The notes below the pieces were generated by a model that saw only the letters and a list, made by a program, of their open reading frames with translations, was not told where the DNA came from and did no database searches. The position numbers and the translations under genes are program-made. From Nitrospiraceae bacterium (GTDB lineage: Bacteria; Nitrospirota; Nitrospiria; Nitrospirales; Nitrospiraceae): a stretch of 64,000 bases of DNA. Positions 1-9,971 of this stretch are shown here, in pieces (position 1 is the stretch's first letter; the number at the start of each line of letters is the position of its first letter). The stretch is from assembly GCA_013140715.1 (NCBI GenBank), contig JABFSG010000059.1, positions 1-64,000 on the forward strand, written 5' to 3'.

Positions 1-317
1 GGGTGGCGAGCTACCTGTATGCCATGACCCGGTTGCCGCAGTTCAGCAAGAACGTGTCGTTCCCGTTGGTGGGGGCGATCGTAGGGCCGATGATGATTCT
101 CCCGAACGTGGGCCTCAACGAGTGGGGGCATGCCTTCTGGTTCGTCGATGAGTTGTTTGCGGCGCCGTTGCATTGGGGCTTTGTGACCTTGGGCTGGTGC
201 GGCTTGTTCGGCGGCACCGGCGGTGTGGCGGCCCAGATCGTCGCCCGGATGTCGAACCTCTGCGACGTGGTCTGGAACAACGAGGACAAGAAGTGCTTGC
301 ATGTGATCCCCTACTAA
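1..317 (+). CDS. amoC: Ammonia monooxygenase subunit C (AmoC), C-terminal part
   Basis: This is the membrane subunit C of the copper ammonia monooxygenase, which oxidises ammonia to hydroxylamine. About 104 C-terminal residues are visible; the 5' end lies outside the window and the frame enters at position 3. The stretches [33 protein letters not shown] and GVAAQI match what I remember of bacterial AmoC, including the Asn-Glu-His segment near the last membrane helices. It ends with TAA at 315-317, followed by a strong hairpin. No amoA or amoB follows, although amoC normally precedes them, so this looks like a stand-alone copy or the end of a rearranged cluster. With the Nitrospira-like surroundings it suggests comammox. 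PmoC is the close alternative family, but the residues favour AmoC. Confidence 0.9.
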
Positions 318-340
318 GGGATCAAGCGCCTGTGGGTGTT

Positions 341-373
341 AGCCCCGCGCTCCGGATGCCGGAACGCGGGGCT
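341..373 (+). terminator. Strong hairpin after amoC, probable terminator
   Basis: The arms AGCCCCGCG (341-349) and CGCGGGGCT (365-373) pair perfectly. After one mismatch the stem continues with TCCGG/CCGGA around an ATG loop. It lies 24 bases after the amoC stop. There is no T-run, only an AT-rich tail (TATAATAAAT), so it could be a weak intrinsic terminator or a 3' stabilising structure of the amoC transcript. Confidence 0.6.
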
Positions 374-418
374 GGCTATAATAAATAGAGGGTGAGGGGT
401 CAAGGGGTTGTCTCTGGT

Positions 419-787
419 ATGGCTCCACCTTGCAAAGAAATGTGGTGTGAACGCGATGAGGCAAGACAACGGCTCTCTTTCATCTTCACTATCTGTAAAC
501 GGAAAATTTCTGTTATTTCTGAGGGAAACACGAGTGCGAAGGAAACCGCCTTCTGGGCGTCGCATGACTCCACTGCATATTTCGATGACTCAAAAATCCG
601 CAGGAGGATCTTTCTGCGATTCAAACCGTTAGCGGAGATGATTTCACTCCGGCTGCCAAAATCTTTACTGGATCAACTCAAGGCGTTGACCAACAAGCAC
701 GATGTTCCCTATCAGAAGCTCCTAAAACGTTTTCTGCTTGAACGAGTGCAGATGGAGCTGCATCTCAAGGCTGCCAAGGCATCATAG
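419..787 (+). CDS. CopG-type ribbon-helix-helix antitoxin, no adjacent toxin
   Basis: The C-terminal 80 residues fit the CopG antitoxin family of type II toxin-antitoxin systems: an ETAFWASHDSTAYFDD segment, then a ribbon-helix-helix body (MISLRLPKSLLDQLKAL, VPYQKLLKRFLLERV) that would bind operator DNA. The partner is usually a BrnT-like toxin encoded just upstream, but only about 100 bases separate this gene from amoC and hold no such toxin. The start is uncertain. GTG 392 has no ribosome site, ATG 419 has AAGGGG 11 bases upstream, and ATG 440 has none. The first 45 residues do not resemble the family and may be remnant sequence. The family call is fairly safe; whether the gene is still functional is unclear. 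Confidence 0.6.
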   Translation: MAPPCKEMWCERDEARQRLSFIFTICKRKISVISEGNTSAKETAFWASHDSTAYFDDSKIRRRIFLRFKPLAEMISLRLPKSLLDQLKALTNKHDVPYQKLLKRFLLERVQMELHLKAAKAS

Positions 788-805: not shown

Positions 806-1717
806 ATGAACACTGGACAGATGAAGACATTCGGACGAAAGCCGCCTGATCGGAGAACTATTATTGCCGTCACCATAGGCCTATTGATGCTTGGTGTGAT
901 TGGCGCAATTCAATATGCCGGGAACAACAATGGTGAAGCCGTTGATCGTGGCAAAATGCTCGGCGAGGCTGTGTATGCAGTCGACAGTAATACGGTTCGC
1001 TGCGAGCCAGGAACCAAACCAGGCATTGCAGGCACCAGCAATGATGAGCAGACATCAGCTGGCATTCGCTATATGGTCAAAACGCCGGTGAATTATAATT
1101 CAACGATCGCCCACCCGTTACTCATGGTCTATGCGCCTGCGGGAACAAGTCGATATGAATCGGAGACGTTTATGCCTCTCACACAAGAAGCGACGACGGC
1201 AGGCTTTATTGTGGCCTACGCAAATAACCGCAGATTGTCTCCCAAGGCAATTGAAGAGCTTGCTGAAATACCGGGACTGATTGAACAGAAATGGTGCATC
1301 GAGAAGAAGCGGATTTTCCTCACCGGTCACTCCGACGGCGGGACTATTGCCATGGGCATCGCCTTTATCAAAGGCACCAGACATATCCCAGCGGCCATCG
1401 CTCCCAGTGCGATGGGCATCACGGGCGAAAACTTGAAAGACCAGAGTTGTCCTAACCCGATTCCCGTCCTGCTCATGCACAGTAGACAAGACAGCCTTTT
1501 CCCTGGTTATGGGAAAGAGGCAATACAATGGTGGGCCGCCTGTAATGGTTGCGATCCTACAAGCCCGGTACAAGGCGAAGACGGCTGTGTCACGTACAAG
1601 GGCTGTAAGAACAATGTCACAACCAGCTATTGTGAAGGCTCGGGGACTCACCGCGAATGGCCGGGAAAAAACAAGGCGATCATTGAATTTTTCAGAAGCA
1701 CTAAAGATGTTCGTTGA
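806..1717 (+). CDS. Membrane-anchored alpha/beta hydrolase, PHB-depolymerase/esterase-like
   Basis: This 303-residue protein has one N-terminal membrane segment (about residues 18-37) followed by an exported catalytic domain. The domain has the nucleophile elbow GHSDGG (174-179, Ser176), a likely acid Asp in HSRQDSLFP (about 229) and a late His in THREWPG (about 282). This is the layout of LpqC/poly(3-hydroxybutyrate) depolymerase-like and feruloyl-esterase-like hydrolases. Several cysteines in the last third (WCIE, ACNGC, GCVTYKGC, SYC) could form disulfides outside the membrane. AGGGCAGGA lies upstream of the ATG. It stands alone between the antitoxin gene and the repeat region before the RM operon. 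The substrate cannot be told; an intracellular granule depolymerase is unlikely given the anchor. Confidence 0.7.
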   Translation: MNTGQMKTFGRKPPDRRTIIAVTIGLLMLGVIGAIQYAGNNNGEAVDRGKMLGEAVYAVDSNTVRCEPGTKPGIAGTSNDEQTSAGIRYMVKTPVNYNSTIAHPLLMVYAPAGTSRYESETFMPLTQEATTAGFIVAYANNRRLSPKAIEELAEIPGLIEQKWCIEKKRIFLTGHSDGGTIAMGIAFIKGTRHIPAAIAPSAMGITGENLKDQSCPNPIPVLLMHSRQDSLFPGYGKEAIQWWAACNGCDPTSPVQGEDGCVTYKGCKNNVTTSYCEGSGTHREWPGKNKAIIEFFRSTKDVR

Positions 1718-2220
1718 AATTTTCCGAGCGGCCCCGGTAGGTCATTACTCATACCAACCCCATTCTATCGACTCTTCTCACAGTTGATTTCCTAGCACGC
1801 GCAGTGCGTGGCCTCAGAAGGATGGAGGGAAACGGCCAGGTGCCCCTCTTGCTCGCAGAACAGAGGAAGGGATGGGGCCTGATGATCTCCTGTGCTCGCG
1901 CAACGCGCGGCCTCCAAAGGCTCTCGTTGAACGCGCGCAGTGGGAGATCAATCAGGCCCCATCCTTGAGAGATACTGAGCAAGCTTGGAGGGAAACATTT
2001 GCATTGTTCTACGCGCACAATGGAGGATCAACCATGCCGCCCTGTGAGGAAACGAGTAGCGAGCTTGAAGGGAGCATCGGAGCATAAGCTGTCCGGTAGT
2101 AACTGGCTCCTCCGGTCATGTTCGTGAAACCCGAAGGCATCCCTTTGGAGGAACGTGATTTCTCGGAGGGAAAGGGGTATCCTTCGGCGGCAAATGCTTT
2201 AGCAATCTGAGTTTTCTTAC
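1718..2220. other. Non-coding flank of the RM island, repeat-rich
   Basis: No credible gene is seen in these 503 bases. The stretch holds a small hairpin, CACGC-GCAGT-GCGTG (about 1796-1810), a long imperfect palindrome (1867-1966), and a segment near 2053-2078 (AACGAGTAGCGAGCTTGAAG) whose inverted relative lies near 8905-8930 beyond hsdS. No clear promoter or ribosome-binding site is seen directly before hsdR. Confidence 0.6.
1867..1966. repeat. Left-flank palindromic element of the RM island
   Basis: The arm GATGGGGCCTGATGATCTCC (1871-1890) pairs imperfectly with GGAGATCAATCAGGCCCCATC (1943-1963), giving a palindrome of about 100 bases. Between the arms lie GCTCGCGCAACGCGC (1894-1908) and CGCGCGCAGTG. 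The same sequences occur in inverse orientation at 8935-9229 on the other side of the RM operon, and the GC-rich boxes recur at 29354-29368 and 29440-29449. It looks like a REP/BIME- or MITE-type element; no transposase gene is present. Confidence 0.65.
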
Positions 2221-4599
2221 ATGGCAGGACCCGACAAAAAGACTCTCACCGAGCGCGATATCTGCACCAAATTCATTACGCCCGCACTGGTCGGTTCCGA
2301 CAGTACAAAGTGGAATGTGATGACACAGCTTCGGGAGGAGTTCTACTTCACCAAGGGCCGGGTTATTGTCCGTGGAAAGACGGTGAAGCGAGGTGAGGCT
2401 AAGAAAGCCGACTATCTCCTCTTCTATAGACCGAACATCCCCATTGCCGTCATCGAAGCCAAGGACAACAACCATTCGGTGGGCGCCGGGATTCAACAGG
2501 CACTGGAGTATGCGGAGATCCTCGACATTCCATTTGCCTACAGTTCCAATGGAGATGCCTTTTTAGAGCACGATCGTACTGTTTCATCCAGTGCGGTTGA
2601 ACGGGAAATTCCCCTCCAAGAGTTTCCAGCACCCGAGGAGCTCTGGGCACGCTTTTGCAAAGCCAGGACCTACACGCCAAAACAAGCAGCCGTCACCATA
2701 CAGGATTATTTTGACGACGGGTCAGGCAAGACACCTCGCTATTATCAGTTGATTGCCATTAATCGAACCATCGAGGCGATCGCTCGCGGAGAGAACCGCA
2801 TCCTATTGGTCATGGCCACTGGCACGGGTAAGACCTACACAGCTTTCCAGATCATCTGGCGTCTGTGGAAGTCAGGTGCCAAGAAGCGGATCCTCTTCCT
2901 CGTCGATCGTAATATCCTCGCCGATCAGACCAAAACCAACGACTTCAAGCCGTTCGGTCAAGCGATGACCAAGATCACCAATCGTACGGTTGATAAAGCA
3001 TTCGAGATTTACCTCTCTCTCTACCAGGCCGTCACAGGCACCGAGGAGGAGCAGAACATCTACAAGCAGTTCTCGCCCGATTTCTTCGACCTGGTGATCG
3101 TTGACGAGTGCCACCGTGGCAGCGCCGCCGAAGATGCCAACTGGCGCAAAGTGCTGGAGTATTTCTCGTCGGCCACTCAGATCGGCATGACGGCCACGCC
3201 TAAGGAGACGAGGGCCGTCTCCAACATCGAGTACTTCGGCGACCCGCTCTACACATACTCACTCCGGCAGGGAATATCCGACGGCTTCCTCGCGCCCTAC
3301 AAGGTGATCCGTATTGGCATTGATAAAGACTTGGAAGGGTGGCGACCGGAAAGAGGTAAGACAGATAAGTATGGTCAGGTGGTCGAGGATCGCGAATACA
3401 ATGTTACAGATTATGACCGCAATCTCATGCTTGAAAAGAGGACGGAGCTAGTCGCAGCGAAGATCACGGAGTTCTTAAAGGCCACCGATCGCTTTGCCAA
3501 AACCATCGTGTTCTGTGAAAACATTCCCCATGCTGAGCGGATGCGTCAGGCGCTGGTCAACGCCAACCCAGACCTGGCTGCCGCCAACAGCAAGTATGTC
3601 ATGAGGATCACCGGTGATAACGAAGAAGGGAAGGCGCAGCTCGATAATTTCATCGACCCCGAATCAACCTTTCCAGTCATCGCCACGACCTCGCAGTTGA
3701 TGTCAACCGGCGTGGATGCCCAAACCTGCCATCTCATCGTGCTTGATAAGACCATCAACTCGATGACTGAGTTCAAGCAAATCATCGGTCGTGGTACGCG
3801 TATCAATGAAGACTATAACAAGCTCTTCTTTACCATCATGGATTTTAAACGGGCTACAGCGCTGTTTGCGGACCCAGACTTCGATGGCGAGGCCGTTCAG
3901 ATCTACGAGCCTGGTCACAATGACTCACCAGTTCCTCCTGATGAGGTGGAAGGGCGGGATGAAGAGCACCTTGATGGCTACGCTGATCTTGGTTGGGCGG
4001 ATAGCGCAGAGCCGCCTGCGGTCCATGAACGTCCAGCGAAGTACTACGTGGACGATGTGGAGGTGACCGTCGCGACGGAGCGGGTTCAATATCTCGATGA
4101 ACATGGCCAACTCATCACGGAGTCGCTTAAAGATTACACGCGCAAGACCGTACGGAAAGCCTATGCCTCGCTCGACGCCTTCCTGAACGCCTGGAAGGAT
4201 GCCGACCGTAAGCAGGCCATCGTCGAAGAGCTTTCAAGCCGTGGGGTGTTTCTTGAAGAACTCGCAGAGCAGGTGGGAAAAGATTATGACGCCTTTGACA
4301 TTATCTGCCATGTCGCATTCGACCAGCCACCGCTCACCCGCCGTGAGAGGGCCGACAAGGTCAAGAAGCGGCATGTCTTCGCCAAGCATGGCGCAAAGAC
4401 TCGGGCGGTGCTCGAAGCGCTGCTTGAGAAGTATGCCGATGGCGGTGTTAAGAGTGTGGAGTCTCTTGAGATCCTCAAGGTCGATCCACTGACACAGTTT
4501 GGAACGCCGGTGGAAATTGTGAATCTCTTCGGGGGCAAGAATCACTACATGGCCGCCGTTCGGGAACTTGAATCGGCCCTTTATCAGAAAGCCGCCTAG
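2221..4599 (+). CDS. hsdR: Type I restriction enzyme, R (motor/nuclease) subunit
   Basis: HsdR of a type I restriction-modification system translocates and cuts DNA lacking the host methylation pattern. The 792 residues show an N-terminal PD-(D/E)XK domain (Asp64, then EAK at 79-81), a superfamily 2 helicase core with MATGTGKT (198-205), VDECH (294-298), MTATPKE (323-329) and the arginine-finger motif QIIGRGTRI (520-528), and a C-terminal region typical of the EcoEI/EcoAI (type IB) R subunit. The length is normal for that subtype. hsdM starts three bases after the stop, so the genes are co-transcribed. No good Shine-Dalgarno sequence precedes the ATG. All visible catalytic motifs are intact. 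Confidence 0.93.
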   Translation: MAGPDKKTLTERDICTKFITPALVGSDSTKWNVMTQLREEFYFTKGRVIVRGKTVKRGEAKKADYLLFYRPNIPIAVIEAKDNNHSVGAGIQQALEYAEILDIPFAYSSNGDAFLEHDRTVSSSAVEREIPLQEFPAPEELWARFCKARTYTPKQAAVTIQDYFDDGSGKTPRYYQLIAINRTIEAIARGENRILLVMATGTGKTYTAFQIIWRLWKSGAKKRILFLVDRNILADQTKTNDFKPFGQAMTKITNRTVDKAFEIYLSLYQAVTGTEEEQNIYKQFSPDFFDLVIVDECHRGSAAEDANWRKVLEYFSSATQIGMTATPKETRAVSNIEYFGDPLYTYSLRQGISDGFLAPYKVIRIGIDKDLEGWRPERGKTDKYGQVVEDREYNVTDYDRNLMLEKRTELVAAKITEFLKATDRFAKTIVFCENIPHAERMRQALVNANPDLAAANSKYVMRITGDNEEGKAQLDNFIDPESTFPVIATTSQLMSTGVDAQTCHLIVLDKTINSMTEFKQIIGRGTRINEDYNKLFFTIMDFKRATALFADPDFDGEAVQIYEPGHNDSPVPPDEVEGRDEEHLDGYADLGWADSAEPPAVHERPAKYYVDDVEVTVATERVQYLDEHGQLITESLKDYTRKTVRKAYASLDAFLNAWKDADRKQAIVEELSSRGVFLEELAEQVGKDYDAFDIICHVAFDQPPLTRRERADKVKKRHVFAKHGAKTRAVLEALLEKYADGGVKSVESLEILKVDPLTQFGTPVEIVNLFGGKNHYMAAVRELESALYQKAA

Positions 4600-4602
4600 C
4601 CT

Positions 4603-6066
4603 ATGTCCAACGTCTCGAACATTGTGAAAACTATCCAGGACATCATGCGCAAGGACGCCGGCACCTACGGCGATGCACAGCGCCTTGAGCAACTCGGCTG
4701 GATGTTCTTTCTCAAGATTTTTGATGACCGCGAAAAAGAGCTGGAACTCCTGCGCGATAACTATAAATCGCCATTGCCGAAGCATCTGCGCTGGTCAAAC
4801 TGGGCCAAGGATGAAGAGGGCATCACGGGTGACGGGCTACTCGATTTCGTGAATAACACCCTCCTGCCAAAGCTCAAGTCATTGACTGGTGGTGCAGATA
4901 AGATCGCCGGTCTGATCCGCATGACCTTCGAGGATGCCAATAACTACATGAAGAACGGCACCCTCATGCGGCAGGTCATCAACAAGATCAACGCCATCGA
5001 CTTCAATGCCTCCGATGACCGCCATATGTTCGGCGATATCTACGAGAAGATCCTCAAGGATCTCCAGTCCGCCGGTAACGCAGGTGAGTTCTATACTCCA
5101 CGGGCCGTGACGCAATTTATCGTCGAGCAGGTGAACCCCAGCCTGAAGAAGCGCGAAACTATCCTTGACCCGGCCTGCGGCACTGGAGGCTTCTTGGTCT
5201 GTGCCATAGAGCACTTGCGGAGGCAGGCCAAGACCGAAGCCGATGAAGCGTTCATTCAGGACTGTTTTTCCGGCATCGAAAAGAAACACCTACCGCACGT
5301 CTTGTGCATGACAAACTTGCTGCTGCACGGAATCGATGTCCCCTCCAACGTTAGGCATGACAACACGCTGGCTCGCCCGCTGCGTGACTGGTCACCCAAG
5401 GAGCGGGTAGACGTCATCGTCACGAACCCGCCGTTCGGCGGCATGGAAGAAGACGGCATCGAGGCCAACTTCCCATCAGAGTTCCGGACCCGTGAGACGG
5501 CGGACCTCTTCCTCGTGCTGCTCATGAAGATTCTCAAGCCCGGTGGGCGCGCAGGGCTGGTGTTGCCTGACGGCACGTTGTTTGGTGAAGGCGTCAAAAC
5601 GCGCATCAAGGAAGCGCTGCTCAGCGAGTGCAACCTGCATACGATTGTCCGATTGCCCAACGGCGTGTTCAATCCCTACACCGGCATCCGTACGAATCTA
5701 TTGTTCTTCACCAAGGGCCAGCCCACCGCCGAGATCTGGTACTACGAGCACCCCTATCCACCCGGTGCCAAGAGTTACAACAAGGGCAAACCTATCCGCA
5801 TCGAAGAGTTTGAACCGGAACGTGCCTGGTGGGGCGATGAATCGAATGGTTTCGCCGCTCGCGTGGAAAACGAGCAAGCCTGGCGCGTCTCCATCGACCA
5901 GATCAAGGCAGGCAACTTCAACCTCGACCTCAAGAACCCGCACAACCCCGACACCGGTCCCGGCGACGTGGACCACCTCCTGCCCGAATACGAAAAGCTC
6001 CTAGCCCAGATCGCCGAGACACGCGCACAGTTGAAAGCTCAGCTTATGGCGGCGCTGACCCGATGA
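4603..6066 (+). CDS. hsdM: Type I DNA adenine methyltransferase, M subunit
   Basis: HsdM transfers a methyl group from S-adenosylmethionine to the N6 of adenine in the site chosen by HsdS. The 487 residues have the N-terminal helical HsdM domain (about 5-140), the AdoMet-binding motif LDPACGTGGF (188-197) and the catalytic NPPF (275-278). GEFYTPR (161-167) is the usual family signature ahead of the methyltransferase core. The stop overlaps the start of the DUF1016 gene by four bases (ATGA), which indicates translational coupling. The gene appears complete and of ordinary length. Confidence 0.94.
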   Translation: MSNVSNIVKTIQDIMRKDAGTYGDAQRLEQLGWMFFLKIFDDREKELELLRDNYKSPLPKHLRWSNWAKDEEGITGDGLLDFVNNTLLPKLKSLTGGADKIAGLIRMTFEDANNYMKNGTLMRQVINKINAIDFNASDDRHMFGDIYEKILKDLQSAGNAGEFYTPRAVTQFIVEQVNPSLKKRETILDPACGTGGFLVCAIEHLRRQAKTEADEAFIQDCFSGIEKKHLPHVLCMTNLLLHGIDVPSNVRHDNTLARPLRDWSPKERVDVIVTNPPFGGMEEDGIEANFPSEFRTRETADLFLVLLMKILKPGGRAGLVLPDGTLFGEGVKTRIKEALLSECNLHTIVRLPNGVFNPYTGIRTNLLFFTKGQPTAEIWYYEHPYPPGAKSYNKGKPIRIEEFEPERAWWGDESNGFAARVENEQAWRVSIDQIKAGNFNLDLKNPHNPDTGPGDVDHLLPEYEKLLAQIAETRAQLKAQLMAALTR

Positions 6067-7220
6067 AAAAGAAGCCTGTCGTCGCTACACAAACCGCCGT
6101 GGCCAAGGCGAAACCCGACAGCCTCGCTCCGCTCATGACGGAGGTGCGCAAGCTCATCCAGTCCGCCCGCCGAGGAGTTGCTTCCGTCGTCGATATGTTT
6201 CAGGTGATGACCAACTTTGAGATCGGTCGCCGCATCGTCGAGCATGAGCAGAAGGGTGAAAGGCGGGCCGCGTATGGAGCCGAACTTTTGAAGGAGCTTT
6301 CGGCGCGGCTGACGGAGGAGTTTGGGCGGGGGTTCTCTGTGGTGAACTTGTCGAATATGCGGCGGTTTTTCCTCCTCTGGAAAGAGCGGATTCAGATTCT
6401 TCAGTCACCGGCTGAAAAATGGAGACTGCCCTCCTCAAAAGGTCAGTCGGCAACCAACCCATCGGCAATTATTCAGGCAGTGACTGAAAAATCCACCTCG
6501 CTCCCATTTGTCCTGAGTTGGACACATTACGTCGAGCTGCTCGACATCAAAGCCCCGGACGAACGGAGCTTTTACGAAATCGAGTCGGCCAACTCAGGAT
6601 GGAGCGTCCGCGAACTCAAACGCCAGAAAGCCGCCAGCCTCTATGAACGGCTCGCCCTCAGCCGCGACAAAGCCGGCATCAAGCGCCTCGCCCGCGAAGG
6701 GCAGATCGTCACGAAACCGGAAGACCTCTTCAAGGAACCCCTCGTGCTCGAATTCCTCGGCCTGGAAGAGCGCGCCCGCTACTCCGAGTCCGATCTCGAA
6801 TCCGCCCTCATCACCCATCTCGAAAAGTTCCTCCTCGAACTCGGCAAAGGCTTTCTCTTCGAGGCGCGGCAGAAGCGGTTCACCTTCGATGGCGACCACT
6901 ACTTTCTCGACCTCGTTTTCTACAACCGCCTCCTGCGCTGCTACGTCGTCATTGATCTGAAGCTCGACAAGCTCACCCACCAGGACCTCGGCCAAATGCA
7001 GATGTATGTGAACCACTACGACCGCCATGTGAAGCTGCCGGAGGAAAACCCCACCGTTGGCCTGCTCCTGTGTAAGGAGAAGAAAGACGCCGTGGTGAAA
7101 CTCACTCTGCCCAAAGGCGCCAACATCCACGCCAAGGAATACCAGCTCTACCTCCCCTCGAAGGAACTGCTCAAAGCCAAGCTCCTCGAATGGACCCGCG
7201 CCGAAGAAGCCAAGACATGA
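6063..7220 (+). CDS. DUF1016/YhcG-type PD-(D/E)XK nuclease inside the RM operon
   Basis: This 385-residue protein has the two-part layout of the YhcG/DUF1016 family: an N-terminal helical domain (about 20-190, with VVNLSNMRRFFLLW and LSWTHYVELL) and a C-terminal PD-(D/E)XK nuclease-like domain (about 220-375). The likely active site is formed by FLDLVFYN (281-288) and VVIDLK (295-300), followed by the conserved GQMQMYVNHYDR. The family is often found near type I RM genes, but its role is not firmly known to me. Here it overlaps hsdM by four bases and hsdS by four bases, so it is made together with the RM subunits. Residues 112-145 between the two domains look low in conservation. It may be an accessory nuclease or a regulator of restriction. 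Confidence 0.88.
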   Translation: MKKKPVVATQTAVAKAKPDSLAPLMTEVRKLIQSARRGVASVVDMFQVMTNFEIGRRIVEHEQKGERRAAYGAELLKELSARLTEEFGRGFSVVNLSNMRRFFLLWKERIQILQSPAEKWRLPSSKGQSATNPSAIIQAVTEKSTSLPFVLSWTHYVELLDIKAPDERSFYEIESANSGWSVRELKRQKAASLYERLALSRDKAGIKRLAREGQIVTKPEDLFKEPLVLEFLGLEERARYSESDLESALITHLEKFLLELGKGFLFEARQKRFTFDGDHYFLDLVFYNRLLRCYVVIDLKLDKLTHQDLGQMQMYVNHYDRHVKLPEENPTVGLLLCKEKKDAVVKLTLPKGANIHAKEYQLYLPSKELLKAKLLEWTRAEEAKT

Positions 7221-8701
7221 AGCTGGAAACCTTCTTCGAGCAATTCGACCAGTTCGCCGACGCGCCCGATGCAGTGGCGAAGATGAGAGAGTTGGTGCTG
7301 GAGTGGGCGATCACTGGAAAACTGTGCCACACCAACTTTGCTGAATGGAGCGAAGGTGTCTTGGGGGATGTAATTGAGCTAATTTCGGGGCAACACTTGC
7401 TTGGCCATGAACACAACGAAGAGGGTCGTGGTATTCCATACCTCACTGGCCCTTCCGACTTCGGCGAGAAAAACCCAATTCCAACGCGCTGGACCGAGCA
7501 GCCGAAAATCACGGCGAAGCCCGGCGACATCTTGATCACTGTGAAGGGATCTGGAGTTGGGAAGACGAATGTCCTCGTTGATCAGCCAACGGCAATCAGC
7601 CGTCAGCTCATGGCAATTCGTGTGACAGGTGCTGAACCTGAGTTTGTGCATTTCGTACTGAAGCGAGCAGCTGAACACTTTCAGAATGCCAAAACTGGCA
7701 TCGCTATTCCCGGTATCGGCAGAAGAGAAGTTCTAGGCTTGAAGGTCGTTCTTCCACCCCTGGCTATGCAGAAGCAGATTGTGGCGAAGGTGGATGAGTT
7801 GATGGCGTTGTGTGATCGGCTGGAGGCGCAGCAGCAGGAACAGGAGCCGCGGCACGCCGCGCTCGCCCGCGCGTCGCTGGCCCGTTTTGCCGACGCACCC
7901 ACCCTGGCCAACCTCGACCTGCTCTTCCACAAGTCCTACAGCATCCCCGCCACCGACCTCCGCAAGTCGATCCTCACCCTCGCCGTCCAAGGCAAACTAG
8001 TTCCCCAAGACGCCAACGACGAACCTGCGGAGGTACGCTTGTTACCGCCCGTTACGAGGCCAAAGGGCGAGCAAGAGACTCCGTTTGAGTTACCCGACAG
8101 TTGGAGATGGATACAGTTAGGTCAGGTCAGCGACTTAATCAATGGCGACCGAAGCAAAAACTATCCAAACAAAGCTGAGTATGTTCAGGAAGGTGTAGCG
8201 TGGATCAACACAGGGCACATTGAACCCGATGGAACGCTTTCCACGGATTCGATGCACTACATCACGCGGGAGAAATTCGATTCGCTCCGGAGCGGCAAGG
8301 TGCGCCCAGGTGATTTGGTCTATTGTCTACGGGGTGCGACGCTCGGGAAAACAGCGATTATCACTCAATTTGAAGAAGGTGCGGTTGCTTCCTCGCTAGT
8401 GATCATTCGCCTCTCGTCGTTAGTTGATCCAAAATTTGCATATCACTTTCTGATGAGTCCGTTGGGGCGCGACCAGATCTATGAATTTGATAACGGCTCG
8501 GCGCAGCCGAATCTGTCAGCGAATAACGTCAGAAAATATTGGGTTCCCCTCCCACCCCTCGCCGAACAACGTCGGATCGTGGCGAAAGTGGAGCAACTGA
8601 TGGCCTTGGTGGACGAGCTGGAAACGCAGCTTGCCACCGCCCGCACCACCGCCGAACAACTTCTGGAAGCCGTGGTCGTCGAACTGACCACACAGGACTA
8701 G
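7217..8701 (+). CDS. hsdS: Type I restriction-modification specificity subunit
   Basis: HsdS recognises the bipartite DNA target of the complex. The 494 residues hold two target-recognition domains, each followed by a conserved helical spacer: LPPLAMQKQIVAKVDELMAL in the middle and LPPLAEQRRIVAKVEQLMAL near the end. The two near-identical spacers are the structural repeat that sets the distance between half-sites. ATG 7217 overlaps the stop of the DUF1016 gene (ATGA), which favours this start over the in-frame ATG at 7190. The target sequence cannot be read from the protein. Confidence 0.93.
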   Translation: MKLETFFEQFDQFADAPDAVAKMRELVLEWAITGKLCHTNFAEWSEGVLGDVIELISGQHLLGHEHNEEGRGIPYLTGPSDFGEKNPIPTRWTEQPKITAKPGDILITVKGSGVGKTNVLVDQPTAISRQLMAIRVTGAEPEFVHFVLKRAAEHFQNAKTGIAIPGIGRREVLGLKVVLPPLAMQKQIVAKVDELMALCDRLEAQQQEQEPRHAALARASLARFADAPTLANLDLLFHKSYSIPATDLRKSILTLAVQGKLVPQDANDEPAEVRLLPPVTRPKGEQETPFELPDSWRWIQLGQVSDLINGDRSKNYPNKAEYVQEGVAWINTGHIEPDGTLSTDSMHYITREKFDSLRSGKVRPGDLVYCLRGATLGKTAIITQFEEGAVASSLVIIRLSSLVDPKFAYHFLMSPLGRDQIYEFDNGSAQPNLSANNVRKYWVPLPPLAEQRRIVAKVEQLMALVDELETQLATARTTAEQLLEAVVVELTTQD

Positions 8702-8704
8702 CCT

Positions 8705-8869
8705 ATGCCCGACAACCGCCCGCTCAACTTTGACCACGAAGCAACACTGGGAGAACTCGCTGGCCTCGGCAAGAACCGCCGCTTCGACGAAGTCATTGAC
8801 GACGAAGAATTCGAGGACATGGCAACCAATGGTTCCAGGAACTTTATTCTGCGACAAGGCCGCCGTTGA
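8705..8869 (+). CDS. 54-residue acidic ORF after hsdS, unknown
   Basis: A 54-codon frame starts three bases after the hsdS stop, the same spacing as between hsdR and hsdM. The product is acidic in the middle (FDEVIDDEEFEDMA) and begins MPDNRPLNFDHEATLGEL. I do not recognise it. Its position suggests a last small gene of the RM operon, or the N-terminal stub of a longer gene cut by the island boundary, since repeat sequence begins about 65 bases downstream. There is no clear Shine-Dalgarno sequence, so it would depend on coupling to hsdS. Confidence 0.45.
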   Translation: MPDNRPLNFDHEATLGELAGLGKNRRFDEVIDDEEFEDMATNGSRNFILRQGRR

Positions 8870-9268
8870 CGGCGCACAACGAACGCCATCTCTTCCTCCT
8901 CAATAATCCTTCCAAGCTCGCTCGTTATCTATTCGGGGATGGGGCTGATTGATCTTCCACTGCGCGCGTCCATTCCTAATCTTATCTTCATGTCAATGCC
9001 CAGCCCAGCTAAGGACGTGAGGAGCTTTTGACTGCGGCCGTCGAGCGAGGCCCTTCCAATGCTTCAATTTTTCCAGAGGGGGCAGGCAAACCGTTCTTCA
9101 CTGCGCGCATCGAGCGACCACCGGTACATCGTGGGGGCTCTGCGAGCAAGAAGGATGGTTGCCCGCCCCCTCGCATCCTTCTGAAGCCACGTCTTGCGCG
9201 AGCACAGGAGATCATCAGGCTCCATCCCCTCCTCAGTTCCACGAGCAGGAGGAAGACCGTCACCCGCC
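8870..9268. other. Non-coding right flank of the RM operon
   Basis: No gene is supported in these roughly 400 bases. They are largely occupied by the inverted-repeat element at 8935-9229 and, nearer hsdS, a segment (8905-8930) related in inverse orientation to the left flank near 2053-2078. Together with 1718-2220 this marks the two edges of the RM insertion. Confidence 0.6.
8935..9229. repeat. Right-flank element with about 33-bp terminal inverted repeats and a nested palindrome
   Basis: The left end (8935-8968, starting GGGGATGGGGCTGATTGATC) is the imperfect inverse of the right end (9197-9229, CGCGAGCACAGGAGATCATC then AGGCTCCATCCCC). A second inverted pair is nested inside: 9076-9108 (GAGGGGGCAGGCAAACCG and on to CTGCGCGC) against 9142-9172. 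The right arm matches the inverse of 1868-1905 almost base for base. Both left arms end in CACTGCGCGC. No open reading frame is evident inside, so it is a non-autonomous, MITE- or REP-like structure. Confidence 0.65.
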
Positions 9269-9580
9269 TCATGCTGCAGCCTTTTTTACCCTTACTTCAG
9301 CGCGGTAGCCTGTTGCGGCGAGAACTCGAATGAGCACATCGGTTGAGACACCATGAGTGTTCCCGTTTGCAATTGCGGTCACTCGTGTTCTCGACGTGCC
9401 GGCGTATTTTGCAATTTCGGCATGGGTGAGCCGTCCTGCTTGAATGATTTTCGCCAGTGCAACGGTAAGCTCCGAACGGAACTCCATTTCGGCGGTATCA
9501 GCTGCTGACAAACCCAAGGCATGTCCAAGGTCCTCGGCAGTCCGAACGGTCACACGCTTGCGGGTCTTAGGCCTAGTCAT
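9269..9580 (-). CDS. HigA-type XRE-family antitoxin
   Basis: About 103 residues with a helix-turn-helix of the XRE/Cro type (LTHAEIAKYAGTSRTRVTAI followed by a recognition helix) form the DNA-binding antitoxin of a type II pair. It would neutralise the toxin encoded immediately upstream and repress the shared promoter. ATG 9580 lies inside the end of the toxin gene (8-base overlap), so the order is toxin first, antitoxin second, as in higBA. The frame is open further upstream, but those residues are antisense-like and unconvincing. Confidence 0.82.
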   Translation of the reverse strand: MTRPKTRKRVTVRTAEDLGHALGLSAADTAEMEFRSELTVALAKIIQAGRLTHAEIAKYAGTSRTRVTAIANGNTHGVSTDVLIRVLAATGYRAEVRVKKAAA

Positions 9581-9905
9581 CCAATACCTCCTTGAGTCGC
9601 TGTTGGCCAATGGCAATTTCATGCGCAGGCGTCTTCTGGGTCTTCTTTTGGAATCCGTGAAACACCACAATCGTATCAACAACTTTTACAAAGTAGAACA
9701 CTCGCACAACCGTCGTTGCGCTTCTAACTCTAAGCTCGTGAACACCTGATGCCACCGTAGGCATCGGCCTACTGAGAGGTAAGCCGAGACTGACACCCTT
9801 CTGAACATCACGAAGTGCTTCACCGATCTCACGCTTGATCATCGGCGATTGGTTTCGAATGAATGCCAGCGCCTTGGGATGAAACGTAATCGACTTCACG
9901 GGCAC
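9573..9905 (-). CDS. HigB/RelE-type toxin (phage Gp49-like family)
   Basis: The 110-residue basic protein has the features of the Gp49-like HigB toxins: KSITFHPKALAFIRNQ, a GLPLSRPMPTVASGVHELRV core and VVRVFYFV followed by FHGFQKKTQKTPAHEI. Such toxins are ribosome-dependent mRNA interferases. It overlaps the antitoxin gene that follows. The pair sits between the repeat flank of the RM operon and the HIT/his operon, so it may belong to the same accessory island. The family is clear; activity is assumed. Confidence 0.82.
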   Translation of the reverse strand: MPVKSITFHPKALAFIRNQSPMIKREIGEALRDVQKGVSLGLPLSRPMPTVASGVHELRVRSATTVVRVFYFVKVVDTIVVFHGFQKKTQKTPAHEIAIGQQRLKEVLDD

Positions 9906-9971
9906 AGTATGTCTTAGATTCAGGACATTGGCAAGGGTGGTCAGTGACAGAAAATCTGCAATGGAAAAGGG

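Follow-up and report, generated by a model that had tools for sequence, protein, structure and literature searches.

A contig-end amoC of a clade B comammox Nitrospira genome, probably one of three non-operonal copies, and its conserved 3' hairpin

The window, a stretch of 64,000 nucleotides, starts at base 1 of contig C3 of genome G000 (Nitrospiraceae bacterium, GCA_013140715.1), which is rated 99.7% complete. It opens with the 3' third of an amoC gene. With a probability of about 0.78, the gene is one of three amoC copies that a clade B comammox organism has outside its operon, and these copies would give an extra or timed supply of AmoC to the same AMO. To our knowledge, there is no agreed explanation for the spare amoC genes of nitrifiers. 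As every comammox genome is reported to carry at least one non-operonal amoC (PMC6311188), the window copy is of a known kind, and the detail added here concerns copy identity, hairpin and neighbours. It shares with the reported copies its place outside a single amo cluster, its AmoC family and its clade B sequence. It differs in that G000 has three extra copies, an operon-identical protein over the compared sequence, a recurrent esterase neighbour and a conserved 3' hairpin. The following features of the window are considered:

1 to 317, forward strand: 3' part of amoC, last 104 codons and TAA (PF04896, E 1e-38; open frame from position 3)
117 to 173, forward strand: CuD copper-ligand triad N-x3-H-x13-H (codons 117-119, 129-131 and 171-173; motif at fragment residue 39)
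210 to 218, forward strand: two-residue insertion relative to AOB AmoC, in GLFGGTGG (alignment to solved AOB AmoC)
338 to 376, forward strand: RNA hairpin after amoC, without a U-tract (fold z -3.6, pairing conservation)
530 to 787, forward strand: CopG/BrnA-type antitoxin (PF12441, E 6e-19)
806 to 1717, forward strand: esterase-like protein with an N-terminal hydrophobic segment and a GHSDGG nucleophile motif (weak Pfam/NCBIfam matches)
1719 to 9911, no strand assigned: accessory island with type I R-M genes hsdR, hsdM and hsdS, a YhcG/DUF1016 nuclease and a Gp49/HTH toxin-antitoxin-like pair (comparison with locus L106 of G016, Pfam, PADLOC)

An earlier note, made from the letters of the window, had read its first 317 bases as an AmoC C-terminus. 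In agreement with this, the open frame from 3 to 317 ends in TAA and matched Pfam PF04896 with 133 bits (cut-off 26.7; E 1.2e-38) over profile positions 158-244 of 245. On the NCBIfam model AmoC_BACT, the cut fragment scored under the whole-protein cut-off, while its complete twin on contig C104, with 100% protein identity across the overlap, passed with 341 (cut-off 319). Among solved structures, the best matches were AOB AmoC chains with 364-376 bits, and PmoC of the particulate methane monooxygenase (pMMO) reached approx. 238 bits or less; a best match to pMMO, which the note had named as grounds for giving up its reading, was not found. PmoC shares the Pfam family, and its CuD ligands Asn227/His231/His245 have the same spacing as the triad in the window (PMC12576850). 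Still, with scores of approx. 240 bits or less for PmoC there is no evidence for methane oxidation. CuC ligands (Asp/His/His) are present in the C104 twin, and the corresponding segment of the window copy lies in the part that is cut off. The difference from AOB that had been noticed before VAAQI, GG(T)GG, proved in the alignment to be a two-residue insertion, the AOB counterpart being GLF(Q/A)GG(V/I)AAQI. An insertion of this length was found in every comammox copy checked, as GT in clade B and mostly as AA, GA or AG in clade A.

The tree of comammox clade A, clade B and AOB copies that the note had proposed was calculated from the protein sequences (72 rows). The window fragment and C104 fell together within a group of 24 clade B rows (SH-aLRT 99). 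The clade B rows, among them a record named Rifle clade B, stood apart from clade A and AOB. G000 also has a match to an HAO-type octahaem cytochrome (PF13447 on C69, E 2.5e-141). A comammox Nitrospira of clade B is supported as the host by the tree.

G000 contains four amoC places, one complete (C104) and three cut (C3, i.e. the window, C26 and C70). Only one amoA and one amoB were found; both directly follow the amoC of C70. Downstream of the window amoC there is neither gene, and the genes found there are unrelated. Since the single amoA and amoB have their own amoC on C70, the three other copies, the window's included, are non-operonal. Thus, the proposal of an extra or solitary comammox amoC with no amoA or amoB next to it was borne out. 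Alternatively, the window gene might belong to a second amoCAB operon, inverted or split, or encode a pMMO subunit, as the sequence upstream of it lies beyond the contig start. This is highly improbable, given that amoA and amoB occur once, behind another amoC, and that pMMO scores far lower; the inverted operon that would have spoken against a solitary copy was therefore not encountered. A plasmid search returned short AmoC-type matches only.

The four copies are very similar. Their coding overlap has five variable sites, all synonymous (dN 0), and the identity of AmoC within the genome covers 96-104 C-terminal residues and, on C75 and C21, residues 1 to 42. Homology between the copies extends from near the start codon through the 3' hairpin, and the flanks differ. 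In other clade B genomes, AmoC copies of one genome share 87 to 100% protein identity; compared with this spread, the sameness in G000 suggests recent homogenisation.

AmoC3 of Nitrosomonas europaea is divergent from its operon AmoC and is encoded, like the window copy, by a singleton gene besides an amoCAB operon. A specialised stress variant of this kind, i.e. a distinct AmoC for heat or starvation, is an unlikely though not a far-fetched explanation of the window copy. The solitary amoC of AOB, amoC3 included, is reported to be under sigma-32 control (PMC6311188), and in the relatives RSF3, RSF6 and CG24A the esterase-linked amoC adjoins a gene for a sigma-54-type regulator, followed by FtsH in RSF3 and RSF6. 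Furthermore, the esterase-linked AmoC of RSF3 differs by approx. 8-9% in protein from its other two copies. The window AmoC, however, is identical to the operon AmoC across the overlap and so does not show a distinct sequence, and no regulator is located downstream of it. Any specialisation would therefore lie in regulation and not in the subunit, while differences of up to approx. 13% in protein would allow specialised variants in other clade B genomes.

The truncation of the gene in the window can be traced to the assembly. Base 1 of the window is base 1 of contig C3, and the 5' part of amoC runs off the contig. C3 and C26 begin at the identical amoC base and are alike for 127 bases, with the first difference at 128; the amoC 5' ends on C75 and C21 overlap the complete amoC of C104 by exactly 127 bases. 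This pattern is the one left when a de Bruijn graph with k=127 breaks within a gene present in several copies. The shared start and the exact overlaps make the truncation an assembly effect, and we infer that the window amoC is intact in the organism. A dead fragment left by recombination is improbable. Other clade B genomes do contain partial amoC matches, most of them next to runs of N or at the end of a contig, and the antitoxin next to the window amoC is without its start. But the break coincides exactly with the k=127 break common to C26, the copy has no nonsynonymous change relative to the others, and dN/dS was 0.05-0.10 between the window amoC and the esterase-linked copies of relatives. 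As amoC repeats break short-read assemblies, amoC copy numbers, or an absent amoC, call for caution in metagenome-assembled genomes.

The hairpin mentioned in the earlier note was recovered by folding. The region 315-385 reached -35.4 kcal/mol (z -3.6) and no shuffled sequence folded equally well. The identity of the window with C104 ends at 376, just past the hairpin, and alignments to several relatives end at the same base. Over 19 sequences, standard pairs filled 92.6% of the pair cells compared to 35-53% when the pairing was slid. Changes on both sides were seen in four pairs, with a covariation score that was reached by 3 of 500 shuffles. In the operon copies of G000 and relatives, amoC and amoA are separated by a hairpin of the same type, while other amoC copies, among them the one on C26, have a longer hairpin of another, GGGCGACC type. 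A run of T is absent from the window hairpin, and terminator scoring gave no candidate site there. Because of the missing T-run, and because the polymerase must read through the hairpin in the operon, the hairpin more likely serves to process or stabilise the transcript than simply to terminate it.

For the window copy, an extra AmoC supply from separate promoters is the likeliest role as judged from gene content and context. The gene would be transcribed from its own upstream region, and its AmoC would join the same membrane AMO complex as the operon AmoA and AmoB. The 3' end of the transcript might be shaped by the hairpin, through stabilisation or processing, and the copies might stay alike through gene conversion. 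Since the same subunit behind different promoters implies a different dose or timing, the solitary copies would raise or time the AmoC supply (dosage or stress recovery) and not form a different enzyme. More tentatively, and with the odds against it, amoC and its 3' hairpin could form a mobile, self-homogenising cassette in clade B, whose copies reach new promoters, the esterase locus included, and are kept alike by gene conversion, and whose hairpin permits an excess of AmoC over AmoA and AmoB from one operon.

An antitoxin and an esterase follow the window amoC as described in the note, the former assigned by PF12441 and the latter by weak matches to alpha/beta-hydrolases and PHA-depolymerases. 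In the antitoxin gene, the stretch from the ribosome-binding site to approx. codon 17 is missing; the relatives G019, G016, G003 and G021 have it and retain the start MSKLKxRPTFKS. The ORF 392-787 is, on this comparison, a chance 5' extension of the antitoxin. amoC lies directly upstream of the esterase in nine of the 15 testable genomes of the genus, the window counted. The order amoC-antitoxin-esterase is as in the window in G019, G016 and G003, where contig ends cut amoC, and G002, G004, G008, G009 and G017 have amoC before the esterase without the antitoxin. In at least five other genomes of the genus, the esterase is located downstream of a mutS2-like gene (called by eye from a C-terminal HGHGTGKLK motif, with no profile behind it) and there is no amoC between them. 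The esterase occurred in 16 of 20 amo-positive and in none of 12 amo-negative genomes of the genus (Fisher p 1.6e-5, kinship ignored). Relatives with approx. 50% identity were present in 52 genomes of another genus. A role of the esterase as an ammonia-oxidation-specific gene was dropped in view of these relatives and of the mutS2-like context without amoC. In G019, the closest relative, the esterase has an in-frame TGA (L105) and may be a pseudogene or contain a sequence error.

The accessory island that had been proposed next to amoC exists, beginning at approx. 1719 after the esterase. The antitoxin and the esterase do not belong to it, as both recur beside amoC in relatives. G016 is devoid of the stretch 1719-9911, and its esterase and HIT/his genes adjoin except for one repeat element; G019 has different genes at the site. 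A dispersed intergenic repeat was found at 1790-2095 and 8907-9252, with 51 matches in G000 on many contigs. From these arrangements, the site between the esterase and the HIT/his genes resembles a hotspot for insertion, with the repeat in inverted copies at its borders. The same repeat (1790-2095) also adjoins several amoC loci of relatives.

The upstream regions of C75 and C21 are unlike each other and unlike C104 beyond the ribosome-binding site. In G019, C75-type sequence ends one contig and C70-type sequence another, which pairs C75 with the operon and not with the window. Synteny with G019 and CG24C accordingly placed C75 upstream of the operon amoC. For the window and C26 copies, the upstream flank could be C21 or one missing from the assembly. 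At the contig ends of G000, no orthologue of the sigma-54 regulator on the amoC side in RSF3 was detected; the best match had 54% over half of the protein and was located on C2. On one flank, the solitary amoC of RSF3 (L032, 7215-13470) faces FtsH and the gene of a GAF-PAS sigma-54 activator; the other flank holds an esterase, a small lipoprotein-like gene and a gene for an SPFH-domain protein. In one genome, a C21-type upstream block (L018, L022, L035 and L034) leads into a solitary amoC, and in others into amoCAB. This points either to amoC copies that have recombined with each other or to chimeric assemblies.

On C75, copCD and the operon amoC are separated by an intact IS1595/ISXO2-type transposase gene (L098, 386-1288; PF12762, PF12760), with 259 bp between the transposase gene and the start of amoC. 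Orthologues with 71-81% identity adjoin amoC in G019, CG24A and CG24C, and in G015 the orthologue shares its contig with the 5' end of an amoC. All of them are intact with a dN/dS of 0.08-0.16, and the first catalytic-type Asp appears to be changed in G015. The transposase of the amo cluster may be domesticated.
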